This document shows positions 24,994 to 29,070 of a stretch of 64,000 bases of DNA, piece by piece (the first letter of the stretch is position 1; the number at the start of each line of letters is the position of its first letter). Made by a program: the position numbers and the translations under genes. This DNA comes from Acinetobacter albensis. GTDB taxonomy: Bacteria > Pseudomonadota > Gammaproteobacteria > Pseudomonadales > Moraxellaceae. Location: assembly GCF_900095025.1 (NCBI RefSeq), contig NZ_FMBK01000005.1, positions 148,322-212,321 on the forward strand. The letters run 5' to 3'. The notes beneath the pieces were generated by a model. The model saw nothing but the letters and a program-made list of their open reading frames with translations. It was not told the origin of the DNA and made no database searches.

Positions 24994-25761
24994 ATGATTT
25001 TAAATCACGAAATTAATCAAAACAAACATGCCAAAGAAAAAATACCTCTTGTTTTTATTCATGGTCTTTTTGGTAGTTTAAGTAATTTAGGAATGATTGC
25101 ACGTAAATTCTATAAATCACATGTTGTCATTCAAATTGATGTAAGAAATCATGGGTATTCACCAAGATCTTCAGAAATGGACTATCTGGTAATGGCACAA
25201 GATATTTTAGATACCTTGGATTTACTTGAAATTGAAAAATTTTCTGTAATAGGGCATTCAATGGGCGGGAAAATTGCTATGCAGCTAACTGCTCAAGCCA
25301 GTGAACGTGTTGAACAAATAGTTGTTTTAGATATAGCACCGATTGCTTATACGGAAAATCACCATGATCAGGTTTTTAAAGCTTTATTTGCGGTACAAGA
25401 TGCAAAAATTGAAACGCGTTTAGACGCCACTAAAATTATGCGTGAATACTTAGATGAAGAAATGGTCATACAGTTTTTGATGAAATCATTTCATAAAGGC
25501 CAATGGTTATTTAATGTAGAGGAATTATTTCATCATTATACTGATATTTTAGGATGGCATAATATCCAGATATGCCATAAAGAAATACTTTTTATTCGCG
25601 GTGGTGATTCTAGTTATATGAGTCAAGATCAACATTTTCAAGCAGTTATGCATCAATTTTCTAATGCTCAAATTAAAGTGATTGAAAATGCAGGACACTG
25701 GTTACATGCAGAAAAACCACAACAAGTTATTGATGAAATTAGCAGGTATATGGAAGTTTGA
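24994..25761 (+). CDS. YbfF-type esterase (alpha/beta hydrolase)
   Basis: 255 aa, matching E. coli YbfF in length. The N-terminal FIHGLFGSLSNLG forms the oxyanion region, the nucleophile is Ser89 (IGHSMGGKIAM), and His235 (AGHWLHAEKP) completes the triad. YbfF proteins hydrolyse short acyl esters and acyl-CoA. The 13-bp tandem repeat immediately upstream occupies the 5' leader, so copy-number changes could alter promoter spacing or translation. There is only a weak ribosome-binding site (AAAGT). Confidence 0.8.
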   Translation: MILNHEINQNKHAKEKIPLVFIHGLFGSLSNLGMIARKFYKSHVVIQIDVRNHGYSPRSSEMDYLVMAQDILDTLDLLEIEKFSVIGHSMGGKIAMQLTAQASERVEQIVVLDIAPIAYTENHHDQVFKALFAVQDAKIETRLDATKIMREYLDEEMVIQFLMKSFHKGQWLFNVEELFHHYTDILGWHNIQICHKEILFIRGGDSSYMSQDQHFQAVMHQFSNAQIKVIENAGHWLHAEKPQQVIDEISRYMEV

Positions 25762-25978: not shown

Positions 25979-26000
25979 GTATAAAAGACTTAATTATACC

Positions 26001-26139
26001 ATTGCGTATAATGTCGCATTATGTTATTTGCCCTAGTCGTTGATAAAAAAGCCCAGTTTATACTGGGTTTTTTGTCAATGATGCGACCATTTTCAACGCA
26101 CGAGCAGGGCATTTAACATCAATGTCGATTATACGAAAT
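26001..26139. other. forked att-like structure 1: two inverted dif-like sites
   Basis: A forward site begins at 26001 (XerC-type arm ATTGCGTATAA, then a TTATGTTATTT arm at 26019-26029). An inverted site lies at 26111-26139 (ATTTAACATCA ... TTATACGAAAT). The 80 bp between begins GCCCTAGTCG, ends AGCAGGGC and contains a central terminator-like hairpin, so single-stranded DNA could fold to pair the two sites. This is the layout of attP in CTX-type filamentous phages that use host XerC/XerD. Both sites have a 7-bp centre instead of 6, so they may be inactive. Confidence 0.6.
26045..26073. terminator. hairpin with A and T tracts inside att structure 1
   Basis: AAAAAAGCCCAGT and ACTGGGTTTTTT with a TTAT loop; a bidirectional terminator by appearance. 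Confidence 0.65.
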
Positions 26140-26145
26140 CGAGTC

Positions 26146-26208
26146 TGTGGGGCGGGGCGCGTCCGTCGCTGAGGGCTCGCAAGCGATCGGCGTTGACACG
26201 ATCCCACA
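26146..26208. other. GC-rich hairpin, candidate phage origin or packaging signal
   Basis: A 63-nt block bounded by TGTGGG and CCCACA with inner complementary parts (GTCGCT with AGCGAT). It is strongly GC-rich inside very AT-rich DNA. Filamentous phage intergenic regions carry such hairpins for replication and packaging. Confidence 0.5.
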
Positions 26209-26244
26209 ACTAGATATTTGTTTATATTTTCAACGTTTTTGAGG

Positions 26245-26272
26245 AGGCACACTACTGTCTAATAGTGTGCCT
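26245..26272. other. perfect 10-bp hairpin
   Basis: AGGCACACTA and TAGTGTGCCT around an 8-nt loop, adjacent to the GC-rich hairpin. Together they resemble a filamentous phage intergenic region. Confidence 0.6.
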
Positions 26273-26375
26273 GACTGCGGAAAGTTTTTCCAATTTTGCT
26301 CTATGAGCTATATATAACGGAGTTTTCAGAGTTATTGATAATGTTTCGGATTAAACCCCGTTTTTTCCTCAATTT

Positions 26376-26579
26376 TTATTTTTTTGTTTCTACTTTTACT
26401 ATTCCATCTCGATTAACTTCAATTATTCCATCTAGTAAAGTTTGTTTAATAATTTCATGGAATATTTCTGTATCTCTTAATGGTTTTTTACCTGCTTTTA
26501 CTAAGTCTCTATTCAATTTCAAAGCCACTTCATTTAGGGCTTGCTCTTCTTCATCAGTAAATCGAAATGTCTTAGCCAT
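26376..26579 (-). CDS. ribbon-helix-helix type regulator
   Basis: 67 aa. The start KTFRFTDEEEQALNEVALKL followed by a second helix (DTEIFHEIIKQTLLDG) fits a ribbon-helix-helix DNA-binding fold; it is a remote relative of the product at 28374. Likely a phage repressor or an antitoxin. A 7-bp inverted repeat, AAATCAC...GTGATTT, lies about 17 bp upstream of the start and could be its operator. It is divergent from the truncated replication gene. Confidence 0.6.
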   Translation of the reverse strand: MAKTFRFTDEEEQALNEVALKLNRDLVKAGKKPLRDTEIFHEIIKQTLLDGIIEVNRDGIVKVETKK

Positions 26580-26595
26580 TACATCATCCTTTTAA

Positions 26596-26627
26596 AATCA
26601 CTAGATTCTAAATGAATTTGTGATTTA
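26596..26627. promoter_or_regulatory. inverted repeat between RHH gene and rep remnant
   Basis: AAATCAC and GTGATTT enclose the sequence TAGATTCTA. The motif CTAGATTCTA also occurs near 24858, 55099 and 56042, suggesting a shared binding site in related remnants. Confidence 0.4.
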
Positions 26628-26667
26628 TGCTTTTCTTCATATTTATTTCAGTTAATTAAACTGCAAG

Positions 26668-27132
26668 TTGAACAGCCAGAATTATTGCTACATCAGTAAA
26701 GTCACTCGCTGCCTCTGGCACGTAGCTTTTGACCCAATCTTAGAGGCAATGAAGGGTAAATATATGAATTTTTCATCAGATGGAGAAATCTTAGATTTAC
26801 TCAAATCTAAGTTAGTCACTTATACCAAGACAAATAAACCAAGCTATACCAAAGCAAATAATGCTTTTAAATTCTATTCCTTGATGCGCCAAGTTGGCTT
26901 TCAAGCAACTAAAAAGTTGTACAGCGAACCCCAGTTTTATAAATGTCTAAATGCTCTTTTAGACTGTGAAATTAGCAAATCACACCTACAAAATCTCAAT
27001 AAAAATCCGAACGGTAAAGTAATCCCATTTGTTCGAATGTTCGAACTCAAAATGTGCGATCAGATGCCATCTGACTATCAAATTCCAGTTTCACAATACA
27101 GTCCAAAATCGGGCTTATATCTAGTGGCTTAA
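26668..27132 (+). pseudogene. filamentous phage replication initiator, C-terminal part
   Basis: 154 codons from a TTG. The sequence LLKSKLVTYTKTNKPSYTKA, FYSLMRQVG, SEPQFYKCLNALLDC and ISKSHLQNLNKN fits the C-terminal half of the phage/plasmid replication protein II/X family, which nicks the double-stranded phage origin. The N-terminal nuclease part is missing; the frame has a stop just upstream. It is followed by a probable ssDNA-binding protein gene, the usual inovirus neighbour. Non-functional on its own. Confidence 0.65.
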
Positions 27133-27166
27133 TAAAATAGCCTAAGTTACCAATGAGGTTTTAACC

Positions 27167-27463
27167 ATGCAAGTTCAATTTAATACTCGTACCATTTTAC
27201 CGTCTGTTTACCGTTCAGAGAAAGACGGGGTCGAAAAGGTCTATTTGTCTACAACCGTGTTTTCACCGCAACGCTACAACTTAACGCCAGCAGCTGGAGT
27301 TATGCCAGTCGAACAGATTCAAGCTGTATTAGCAGAATGCGCAGACAACGCACAGGAAGTAGAAATTCAATTTGTAGAGTCACAAACCAAGTTTGGCGCA
27401 CAGATGCAGATATTTAGTGTTAAGCCATTACCTAAGAAAAACCCAACTGATTCAAAGCCTTAA
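27167..27463 (+). CDS. probable phage ssDNA-binding protein (gpV-like)
   Basis: 98 aa, beta-rich, with a Pro/Lys tail. Size, beta content and position directly after a replication protein match the gene V-type single-stranded DNA-binding proteins of filamentous phages, which coat the plus strand before packaging. I rely mainly on context; motifs of this family are weak. Its stop codon lies inside the 26-bp sequence that leads into the dif site and is repeated at 25989-26014. Confidence 0.6.
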   Translation: MQVQFNTRTILPSVYRSEKDGVEKVYLSTTVFSPQRYNLTPAAGVMPVEQIQAVLAECADNAQEVEIQFVESQTKFGAQMQIFSVKPLPKKNPTDSKP

Positions 27464-27470
27464 TTATACC

Positions 27471-27498
27471 ATTGCGTATAATGTATATTATGTTAAAT
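27471..27498. other. dif: dif site (XerC/XerD recombination site)
   Basis: XerC arm ATTGCGTATAA, spacer TGTATA and XerD arm TTATGTTAAAT. Spacer and XerD arm are identical to the E. coli dif site, and the XerC arm differs at four of eleven positions. It is either the chromosomal dif or the dif copy made by phage integration. Confidence 0.85.
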
Positions 27499-27620
27499 AG
27501 AATATCAAAGACTGTAGCCTACACAACCTAAGTTGTTGCCATAGCTCGGCATCGTAAATCTTTAAAATTGTATTCACGATGCCGAGTATTCTAAATAACA
27601 TAATATACGTTATGCCGAAA
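27471..27620. other. forked att-like structure 2
   Basis: The dif site at 27471-27498 faces an inverted dif-like site at 27593-27620 (AAATAACATAA, TATACG, TTATGCCGAAA). The 94-bp loop contains AGAATA/TATTCT next to the sites and an 11-bp perfect stem CTCGGCATCGT (27545-27555) with ACGATGCCGAG (27576-27586). As single-stranded DNA it folds so that the two dif-like sites pair, as in the CTX phage attP. Confidence 0.75.
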
Positions 27621-27757
27621 TCTGACGCGCTATGTGGTGATCTAACCGAATAAACAATATTTTTAACTTTGTGATTTCTTCATCATGATCTAAATCTGAT
27701 TCTTGCATTTGCACAAGCACGCTCTCCAGTAGATCACGCATATAGATAAAATCATCT
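27492..27757. repeat. 266-bp repeat copy A (other copy 55120-55385)
   Basis: Near-identical to 55120-55385 with no indels and about ten mismatches. It spans the XerD half of dif, the stem, the inverted dif-like site and the C-terminal two thirds of the 71-aa gene. Confidence 0.9.
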
Positions 27758-27825
27758 CTGGTTAAAACGCCTTTCTTTCTGTCATAGCTTACAGATTTAT
27801 ACAGATGTCTATTTTGAATCATCAA
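27610..27825 (-). CDS. phage-element small protein, 71 aa
   Basis: Charged, helical product with an acidic middle (ESDLDHDEEITKLK). The stop codon lies within the inverted dif-like site, so the gene ends exactly at the att region. A truncated second copy lies at 55238-55385. It is the last gene of a four-gene minus-strand operon. Function unknown. Confidence 0.6.
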   Translation of the reverse strand: MMIQNRHLYKSVSYDRKKGVLTRDDFIYMRDLLESVLVQMQESDLDHDEEITKLKILFIRLDHHIARQISA

Positions 27826-27952
27826 TCTTTACCGGCATCTTATTAATGGGGGTATTTAATTCCAACCCCCACTGTAAACTCGGTGTTTTTGACTTTTCGA
27901 AAGTCTCACCGAAGAAAGATTCATTGAGCGACCAAACTGGATTCTTTTTCAT
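27809..27952 (-). CDS. phage-element small protein, 47 aa
   Basis: ATG at 27952 gives 47 residues (starting MKKNPVWSLNESFFGETFEK). It starts 2 bp after the stop of the preceding 32-aa gene and overlaps the next gene by 17 bp. Unknown family. The compact spacing is the best evidence that it is coding. Confidence 0.5.
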   Translation of the reverse strand: MKKNPVWSLNESFFGETFEKSKTPSLQWGLELNTPINKMPVKIDDSK

Positions 27953-27954
27953 GA

Positions 27955-28053
27955 TCAAAGCACCCCAACTAAATCAAGAAAAAAGGCAGCTGCAATAAAA
28001 GCCATTGCAAAAGAGCAAATCGCAAAATATATGTTGAAGCGATCCAATTTCAT
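27955..28053 (-). CDS. 32-aa single-helix membrane peptide
   Basis: ATG at 28053 overlaps the stop of the preceding gene as ATGA. The product is one hydrophobic helix (IYFAICSFAMAFIAAAFF) with a short charged start. Inovirus minor coat proteins are of this size and type, but a tiny inner-membrane protein is equally possible. Confidence 0.5.
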   Translation of the reverse strand: MKLDRFNIYFAICSFAMAFIAAAFFLDLVGVL

Positions 28054-28271
28054 TCATCTATCCCTAAATCACGCATGTGATCATTTTCTTGTTTTACAGC
28101 ATCGCAATATTCAGAAACTAAAGCGGACTTATAGCCCCACTCGTTCATACACATTTCAATATGGAAAAGAACCTTTTCAGATTCAAAAGCAGGATTGCCC
28201 CCAACGATCAATTGACACGCCTTGTCAAAGATGATTTTGGAAACGATTTCGAAAGCTAGTTCTTTTTCCAT
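28050..28271 (-). CDS. phage-element early protein, 73 aa
   Basis: Helical, acidic product, unknown family. It is first in the minus-strand operon and divergent from the ribbon-helix-helix gene at 28374. The inverted repeat ATTTGTAATTT overlaps its start codon, so repression by the neighbouring regulator would block this operon. Confidence 0.6.
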   Translation of the reverse strand: MEKELAFEIVSKIIFDKACQLIVGGNPAFESEKVLFHIEMCMNEWGYKSALVSEYCDAVKQENDHMRDLGIDE

Positions 28272-28357
28272 TTGTAATTTGTCACAAGTTACATTTAACG
28301 AGAAAATAACATGTTAGATGTTGTGAAACAATATGTAATACGATATAAATTACAAAT
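28270..28357. promoter_or_regulatory. divergent control region with 11-bp inverted repeat
   Basis: ATTTGTAATTT (28270-28280) and AAATTACAAAT (28347-28357) are perfect complements flanking the divergent promoters. One arm covers the start codon of the left gene and the other lies 17 bp before the right gene. A looped repressor switch is plausible. Confidence 0.55.
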
Positions 28358-28373
28358 CACATAGAGAACGATT

Positions 28374-28565
28374 ATGTCCACTACAGTTAGACTTAGAGAT
28401 GAAGAGGAAGAAATGCTTCAAGAATTGACTTTAAATATGATGATTGAAACCAAACTTAGGATTAAAGAATCAGATGTACTTCATACACTTATAAGAAAAC
28501 ACCTTAAAGATATAAAAACATCTGATGTAATGAAATACAGAGAAGAAGTTCTTAAAAAAGATTAA
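28374..28565 (+). CDS. ribbon-helix-helix type regulator
   Basis: 63 aa. The start TTVRLRDEEEEMLQELTLNM and second helix (ESDVLHTLIRKHLKD) give the same fold as the product at 26376-26579. It is divergent from a compact operon with inverted repeats between, as for a phage immunity repressor. It has an AGAGAACG ribosome-binding region. Confidence 0.65.
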   Translation: MSTTVRLRDEEEEMLQELTLNMMIETKLRIKESDVLHTLIRKHLKDIKTSDVMKYREEVLKKD

Positions 28566-28635
28566 TTATCTATGTTGATCCTGATTATTAGAATTATAAA
28601 AAGGGCCATTTATAGGCCCTTCTCTTTTGCGCTTG

Positions 28636-28664
28636 ATGTCGCATAACGTAATTTTATGTTAAAT
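28636..28664. other. dif-like site 3
   Basis: XerC-like arm ATGTCGCATAA and exact XerD arm TTATGTTAAAT, separated by 7 bp (CGTAATT) and not 6. It marks the right boundary of the phage-derived segment and may be the original or a damaged dif copy. Confidence 0.65.
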
Positions 28665-28697
28665 AGATATTATGAACATTTGGAGAATCAAAGAATC

Positions 28698-28981
28698 ATG
28701 CTTACGTTTTTAGAAATTCAAGCTAAGGTTGATCAAATTTGTGAAAAATTGAGTTGGAAAAAAGAAGAGTTTGGCCCGAAGTTCAGAATGGTGGAGCTCC
28801 ATATGTATTAATCCATGAAAACAAATATTTGTATATTTCTGAAGAACGAGGAGGAGTTATTTTTGAAAAAACAACCAAGGATTTTGAAGAGTTACTTTAT
28901 TGGAGAATGGATAATTTTATATCTAGCTATTCATATGAGTTTGAACTTAAAAAGGCTTTGTTGGACAAACTTACCCTTTAA
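28698..28981 (+). pseudogene. Imm63-type immunity protein gene, frameshifted
   Basis: ATG 28698 opens MLTFLEIQAKVDQICEKL. After one frame change in the A-rich stretch near 28757-28765 the reading continues as VWPEVQNGGAPYVLIHENKY, EERGGVIFEKTT, and FEELLYWRMDN...SYEFELKK to the stop at 28981. The ERG..(x)T..ELLYW..Y.yEl pattern is that of Imm63 immunity proteins that protect against polymorphic toxins. No toxin gene is nearby. It begins 33 bp after a dif-like site. Confidence 0.65.
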
Positions 28982-29070
28982 AAACTTTTTCAGCAATATA
29001 ATTTCCAAATAAAGAAGCCTGCCCCTAAAATTTATCGCACGACCAATTGGTCCTCGTATAACCGAGCCTC

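Follow-up and report, generated by a model that had tools for sequence, protein, structure and literature searches.

We analysed a 64,000-nucleotide stretch of the Acinetobacter albensis chromosome (contig NZ_FMBK01000005.1, positions 148,322 to 212,321 of the forward strand; hereafter the window), in which DNA of filamentous phages (inoviruses) surrounds the chromosomal dif site. A left unit (26001-27470) and a right unit (27499-28664) lie on either side of dif, and the right unit, which carries no gene for a replication initiator (Rep), is our main subject. A first-pass annotation made from the letters alone had described stacked, decayed elements at the dif site of an Acinetobacter. Inovirus-derived units are indeed present there, and the sites and units it recognized are real, but they sit on opposite sides of a single dif. 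Nor are they decayed copies in a single tandem array. Matches of the left unit are to a Rep II/X phage and those of the right unit to Rep_trans phages, and tandem decay of one phage family is rejected because the Rep families differ. Records and genomes compared with the window are cited under our L and G numbers.

The chromosomal dif at 27471 reads ATTGCGTATAA-TGTATA-TTATGTTAAAT and is the sole match to the dif pattern at ≤3 mismatches in the 3.05-Mb assembly; across the genus the pattern is matched in 151 of 175 genomes, this one included. The cumulative GC skew has its maximum at about 26 kb in the window, in agreement with the skew inversion and terminus foreseen near 27.5 kb, and a skew turn and a profile match of the 26668 product, whose joint absence was to count against the annotation, are both present. 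After insertion, a canonical, functional-looking dif still stands at 27471, as in the CTXphi class. Two further forward dif-like sites, at 26001 (ATTGCGTATAA-TGTCGCA-TTATGTTATTT) and 28636 (ATGTCGCATAA-CGTAATT-TTATGTTAAAT), had been read correctly, as sequence and pattern search confirm, and so had the inverted sites at 26111 and 27593, the latter recognizable on reading the sequence and pairing with the 27478 arm at 89%. The reported 26-bp repeat (25989-26014 and 27458-27483) is real, but its length was understated: it spans 31 bp at 97% identity (25984-26014 and 27454-27484).

The right unit lacks the rep-to-zot block of XY27-type phages

Acinetobacter johnsonii XY27 carries plas2 and plas3 (NZ_CP070868.1 and NZ_CP070869.1), circular records of 6400 and 6689 bp that encode coat (PF05356), TspB-like, Zot and Rep (PF02486) proteins. 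In these phages h82, rep, the gene after rep, coat, TspB and zot all point one way. The right unit matches them on both sides of their attachment site attP (27475-27848 at 75-85% identity, 28051-28277 at 77% and 28473-28670 at 71%), and everything from rep to zot is missing. Profile searches uphold the first-pass statement that this unit has no replication gene. Its three small genes (27610, 28050 and 28374) are still open and both att ends are intact. L161 (1278 bp) and L245 (1066 bp) are built in the same way, and the right att site is the same, up to its spacer, in L161 and in the arrays of L278, L279, L281, L282 and L283.

We found 170 relatives of the 28050 product, here named the h82 family; several are carried by contigs of 1.0-1.5 kb, which may be circles or fragments. 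The predicted model of the 28050 product is a three-helix protein (pLDDT 88.8) with no PDB match at E ≤ 0.001 that would point to a function. The 28374 product is a predicted repressor by position and size. Two genes had been labelled ribbon-helix-helix regulators, labels to which no named profile answers; the matches are to PHROGs of unknown function only. Genome-wide searches returned neither a Rep_trans nor a Zot match in the genome of the window, and the right unit is therefore a resident without a helper.

A covarying, attP-like hairpin lies beside dif

Both pairs of forward and inverted sites, taken as single-stranded DNA, fold much better than shuffled sequences (z -6.6 to -7.8), and the first 150 bases to the right of dif form a long stem (z -7.6 and -7.2). 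We aligned this hairpin from 48 loci picked by right-flank similarity, keeping the 23 with an inverted partner in the pattern used and dropping the 25 without. In the apical stem, double changes occur at 12 of 15 pairs, and 95.5% of cells are paired, whereas 1000 shuffles reached 82.9% at most; the outer Xer arms are invariant in the 23 loci and so uninformative for covariation. The fold scores and the covarying stem bear out folded att structures of the CTX type, and an attP made of two inverted dif-like sites pairing on one strand, characteristic of the CTXphi class, is present. By analogy with that class, the hairpin may be used by XerC. About 135 bp of the phage attachment region also lies inside larger A. 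johnsonii plasmids (NZ_CP068185.1, NZ_CP140710.1 and NZ_CP022299.1).

To place these sites in the genus we surveyed 141 dif regions: the window and 140 others, each at most about 20 kb long and each from a different genome. Of the 150 further dif-matching genomes, 10 were left out. With dif itself excluded, the 3 kb nearest to dif hold 67 dif-like sites, spread over 50 of 141 loci, a density of 8.4 per 100 kb; at 8-10 kb from dif, 485,689 bp contain 8 such sites, or 1.6 per 100 kb. Dif-like sites near dif are thus more frequent than chance.

A hybrid of two origin-like motifs marks the junction

The XY27 phages carry two origin-like motifs. Motif A, at the rep start, is a stem-loop (CCCCCAT-TAATAAG-ATGGGGG, viral sense); motif B, on the zot side, has the same loop in another stem (GGCAT-AAATAAG-ATGCCGGTAAAG). 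The junction in the window reads ACCCCCATT-AATAAG-ATGCCGGTAAAGATT, with A on the left and B on the right, and its last 21 bases are identical to B. An A-like left arm thus meets a B right arm after h82, with no Rep start, and we propose this arrangement (27824-27858 in the window) as the mark of a short form.

The same rule recurs elsewhere. Among h82-centred contexts, with near-duplicates removed, the A form is present in all 31 that are followed by a Rep gene, and 20 of the 21 readable Rep-less contexts have the hybrid (18 by script; L111, re-read by eye because an extra G had misled the script; and L245, which has little room downstream). L244 has no room and was not counted. We also tabulated motifs over unique contexts, to which contigs found by exact B patterns were added; the filter, two G in five bases, dropped L165 and L245, both hybrids in the h82-centred count. 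In this table each of the 40 rep-start sites has G immediately after the loop, and all 26 Rep-less sites have C there; the 19 zot-side sites also have C without exception, a count that is not a frequency because the added contigs were chosen by B. The Rep-less sites join an A-like left arm, a run of C, to the B right arm in 24 of 26 cases. Rep-start sites have stems of 5-9 bp; the stem is 5-10 bp long at 16 of the 19 sites near zot, and for 25 of the 26 Rep-less sites it is 1-3 bp. Three loop types obey the same junction rule, the A and B stems differing and the loop being shared. Random in-situ deletion of the right unit is rejected because the same junction recurs in other Rep-less elements. 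In one Rep-bearing contig (L202/L292) a hybrid occurs along with an A site, which may reflect an array or an assembly join.

Short forms recur across Acinetobacter

Inovirus-like genes were found in 36 of the 141 dif regions with the first query set and in 39 with more queries. Units to the right of dif with both ends readable fall into 13 of 0.8-2.7 kb and 2 of 6.9 and 7.7 kb, a count that leaves out L129 (a dif-to-dif phage) and L181 (a longer array). In L282, an IMG/VR contig, short and full forms alternate. One short form there, of 1062 bp, matches both ends of the full phage next to it (6393 bp) at 99.7% identity, over 722 bp at one end and 388 bp at the other, and these two matches overlap by 20 bases at the motif. 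L289 offers a similar pair, 99.6% identical to its neighbour over 710 bp at the one end compared. L132 holds three stacked units, the first two 99.7% identical, and agrees with L086 at 93% over the first 1417 bp, after which the genes differ before a common end. On a tree of 48 h82 proteins, built on few columns, the Rep-less label needs 10 changes, of which at least 6 are forced by well-supported branches. Because at least 6 changes are forced and yet the total is below the mean for shuffled labels, we conclude that Rep-less forms arose repeatedly and that some lineages persist.

A PADLOC scan of 16 cargo proteins and the Imm63-like protein of the window gave one strong (AbiTii), one moderate (PDC-S31) and one weak (PycTM) match, and the idea that all short forms are defence cassettes finds no support, since hits at E ≤ 0.01 cover only 3 of the 17 proteins. 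Outside the genus, two genomes of other genera in the family match the h82 alignment weakly.

Several related arrangements were seen. Still smaller cassettes, bounded by att sites, occur in L074, L110 and L200 and as the third unit of L132: at 0.8-1.3 kb they have no h82 and carry one or two other genes, such as one for a DUF2971 protein in L110. L236 and L249 (G065:C48, about 193-195 kb) mark two tandem short forms with the hybrid motif, 1368 bp apart and about 63 kb from the dif of that genome. In L225 a single dif is flanked by a short form to one side and by a Rep-bearing phage to the other.

The left unit and neighbouring sequences

An alpha/beta hydrolase gene (24994-25761) adjoins dif in some relatives, its aligned part stopping 103-106 bp from dif in L096, L175, L181 and L190. 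In the window 1.7 kb separate the end of this gene from dif, and inserted DNA therefore lies on the hydrolase side as well.

The truncated replication-initiator gene noted there at first pass is real. The 26668 product corresponds to the last 139 residues of a Rep II/X protein; the L004 Rep, encoded on a circular record from Acinetobacter sp. ANC 7912, agrees with it at 87% identity over residues 269-407. Pfam and NCBIfam recognize only the C-terminal Rep domain (TIGR01629 positions 276-405 of 407). A search of the genome with this Rep found this piece only. The 27167 product is 65% identical to the genes after rep in L006 and L004, and its former label as a single-stranded-DNA-binding protein lacks a named profile, PHROG 19820, of unknown function, being the sole match. 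Around the predicted regulator, 26375-26652 agrees at 76% identity with the regulator module of L161 and 26374-26640 at 84% with L092, and DNA comparison places a joint near 26640, the sequence leftward being like L092 and rightward like the inner rep of L194 and L068. L188 likewise has a C-terminal Rep piece alone (residues 282-406), for which reason a gene-X-like role is possible for such pieces. Judged by these matches, the left unit appears to be what deletion has left of a Rep II/X phage; it is distinct from the right unit, from which dif divides it. A complete inovirus prophage with Rep, coat and Zot is not found here: the left unit has a Rep fragment only, the right unit no Rep, and the genome no Zot.

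The A. pittii plasmid L007 (NZ_CP017939.1) shows four matches to the rep end and following gene at a spacing of about 6.4 kb, and we read it as a concatemer of a filamentous phage recorded as a plasmid. Beyond the right unit, 28636-28953, from the right att site through an Imm63-like gene (PF15599), is 91-92% identical to A. wuhouensis and A. indicus plasmids, in which the counterparts (L009 2049-2577 and L008 5004-5533) place the Imm63-like gene between two plasmid dif-like sites about 500 bp apart; a plasmid Xer module and the chromosomal att site may have met here. The adjoining fragment (28951-29067) is repeated at 73-85% in 10 other dif regions and lies beside IS5-family annotations in plasmids, so it is probably an insertion-sequence remnant. 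Elsewhere in the genus, six draft contigs (G016, G005, G107, G013, G098 and G182) break off no more than about 100 bp from dif, which is what collapsed assembly of phage copies at this place would produce. On left flanks (L061-L200) two recurrent end sequences abut dif, one in 18 and the other in 14 of 141 loci, and in 13 and 14 of these, respectively, they stop 5 bp short of the XerC arm; we take them to resemble the ends of insertion sequences of the kind that targets Xer sites.

Table 1. Features at the dif locus, in window coordinates
Feature	Position	Strand	Basis and remarks
Foldable site pair of left unit	26001..26139	.	Left site 26001-26029 and inverted partner 26111-26139
Predicted regulator, left unit, 67 aa	26376..26579	-	PHROG 5642
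Rep II/X C-terminal fragment	26668..27132	+	PF05155, TIGR01629; N-terminal domain missing
Gene after rep in intact phages	27167..27463	+	PHROG 19820; gene-V-like by position only
Chromosomal dif	27471..27498	+	XerC arm, 6-bp centre, XerD arm; unique genome match, core found in 151 of 175 genus genomes, GC-skew turn
attP-like hairpin, right unit	27471..27620	.	dif arm, inverted partner 27593-27620 and apical stem; fold z, covariation
ox, small gene by hairpin, 71 aa	27610..27825	-	PHROG 13740, function unknown; 65% to XY27 plas2 gene in same place
Open frame across junction, 49 aa	27809..27958	-	One side resembles XY27 Rep N-terminus, by eye
Hybrid origin-like motif (short-form junction)	27824..27858	-	A left arm ACCCCCATT, shared loop, B right arm CCGGTAAAGATT
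h82-family gene, 73 aa	28050..28271	-	Upstream of rep in intact phages; 74% to XY27 gene
Predicted repressor, 63 aa	28374..28565	+	Divergent from h82; 44% to XY27 gene in same place; PHROG 5219
Right att site, right unit	28636..28664	+	7-bp spacer, perfect XerD arm

A proposed origin of the short forms and its alternatives

The ends of the right unit match intact phages, the rep-to-zot block between them is missing, the junction falls in the loop shared by A and B, the same rule holds in other elements, and in L282 the parent stands beside its product. We consider it likely that the right unit is a Rep-less short form of an XY27-type phage, probably made by Rep starting at B and stopping at A, and that the resulting minicircle was inserted at dif by XerC as a folded single strand. 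Because the genes from h82 to zot are co-oriented, the expected order along the viral strand is h82, A, rep to zot, B, ox, attP hairpin and repressor region. On this order, Rep would nick at B and start rolling-circle replication, and a fork ending at A would release a strand with ox, the hairpin, the repressor, cargo and h82, which would close as A-left plus B-right into the short-form minicircle. A and B would thus be Rep nick sites and the product a viral-strand circle. The attP hairpin could then let host XerC insert it at dif, as for CTXphi. The reciprocal circle, having no att site, would not be expected in chromosomes. The retained predicted repressor may silence related phages and so confer immunity.

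Several observations weigh against this proposal. The whole case is built from sequence. L261, a partial gene, is a Rep-less h82 context without the hybrid, and it and L278 (at 1088) are the 2 of 26 Rep-less sites without an A-like arm; the short form of L278, moreover, does not derive from its neighbour (73% over 541 bp). Searches for B came up empty in three records that carry A (L129, L217 and L222), and in L279 B accompanies a Rep of another type while A is absent. About 9 bases around the loop, and some farther out, are common to A and B. The Rep-less label is clustered on the h82 tree, with 10 changes against a shuffled mean of 15.3. No free short-form circle was found with L132, L282 or the 34-base junction of the window among plasmids (for L132, also among phages). 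Cargo had to be given up as a hallmark of short forms, as Rep-bearing phages carry the same genes (L205/L090 and L210/L213).

Among the alternatives, a serious one, to which we give a little less than an even chance, is that the short forms are stable satellites descended from a few old deletions, which spread with a helper and use the hybrid motif as an origin for its Rep. The clustering on the tree fits this, as do a conserved backbone with exchanged cargo (L132/L086 and L090/L147), the near-identical stacked units of L132 and the presence of short forms beside Rep-bearing phages in L086, L090 and L225. The forced changes on the tree, the fresh parent-product pairs in L282 and, at one end, in L289, and a host without Rep_trans or Zot speak against it. 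Satellite spread and repeated formation may well both occur.

Deletions at short repeats are common, and the sequence shared by A and B is a short direct repeat within the phage, so that the junctions could come from replication slippage or RecA-independent recombination in which Rep takes no part. We think this unlikely: although the shared part is only about 9 bases and the stems are unlike, one and the same junction is seen with three loop types, and A is a strong hairpin at the rep start in 40 of 40 sites. That both units are prophages decayed by random deletion, as the first-pass annotation held, is very improbable, given the intact frames, intact ends and recurrent exact junction of the right unit. 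For the left unit, which has lost the Rep N-terminus and structural genes, and which has parallels in remnants left of dif with only the gene after rep (L089, L093 and L200), random decay remains the best reading, and that part of the earlier view stands.

If minicircle formation by Rep is correct, filamentous phages bud off Rep-less integrating minigenomes, which would explain the many short units to the right of dif (13, against 2 of phage size) and would connect replication termination with lysogeny and superinfection immunity. The base after the loop would also serve as a one-base diagnostic for annotation, G in Rep-bearing and C in Rep-less forms. A bolder extension, which we offer tentatively and on balance doubt, is that these phages are two-part by design: the second origin, ahead of the attachment hairpin, would let Rep release, in the course of infection, a circle of att site, repressor and cargo, so that immunity and cargo cassettes would be written into dif without the full genome and would pile up at the terminus as a phage-made record and defence locus.

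Comparison with known systems

The right unit resembles CTXphi in its Xer/dif setting and its folded attP of inverted sites. CTXphi uses host Xer recombinases and dif, with an attP of two inverted dif-like sites folded as the (+) single strand, and RS1 is placed in the same class (PMC4246890). RstA is described as nicking the CTXphi ori(+) in a hairpin loop (PMC4439123). The right unit differs from RS1 in having no Rep and in a junction that lies between two origin-like motifs of one phage. RS1 has a Rep gene of its own, rstA, and hybrid genomes arising from tandem elements were reportedly described by Davis and Waldor in 2000. A satellite of the RS1 type has its own replication gene and no coat or assembly genes; the right unit has no coat or Zot, but no Rep either. 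An inovirus satellite plasmid of Schmid (2024) is said to be helper-dependent and, by its title, autonomous. TLCphi, which sits at dif and likewise needs a filamentous helper, is distinguished by an autonomous replication module (PMC4246890), and the right unit, without Rep, has none.

XY27 plas2 and plas3 share the hairpin, the small genes and the att sequence with the right unit and hold both A and B, but they are complete circles of 6.4-6.7 kb with Rep, coat and Zot. The Acinetobacter Af phages form tandem prophages, some with flanking replication and regulation modules, for which integration at dif by XerCD has been proposed; the available portions of these papers describe no Rep-less short forms or two-origin junctions (PMC11209303, PMC12285184). 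A literature search over titles and abstract openings, covering few subscription papers and no preprints, likewise returned no description of Rep-less inovirus short forms at dif or of natural two-origin inoviruses. A further likeness is to split-origin f1/M13 miniphagemids, in which separated f1 origin elements yield minicircles in the laboratory: replication starts at one element and stops at another, leaving out the rest (PMC10334589). Those constructs are laboratory-built, depend on an f1-type Rep and do not integrate, whereas the forms described here are natural, belong to Rep_trans phages and have their junctions in chromosomes. We class the short forms with the filamentous-phage satellites; if our proposal holds, they would be a natural equivalent of the engineered split-origin arrangement.

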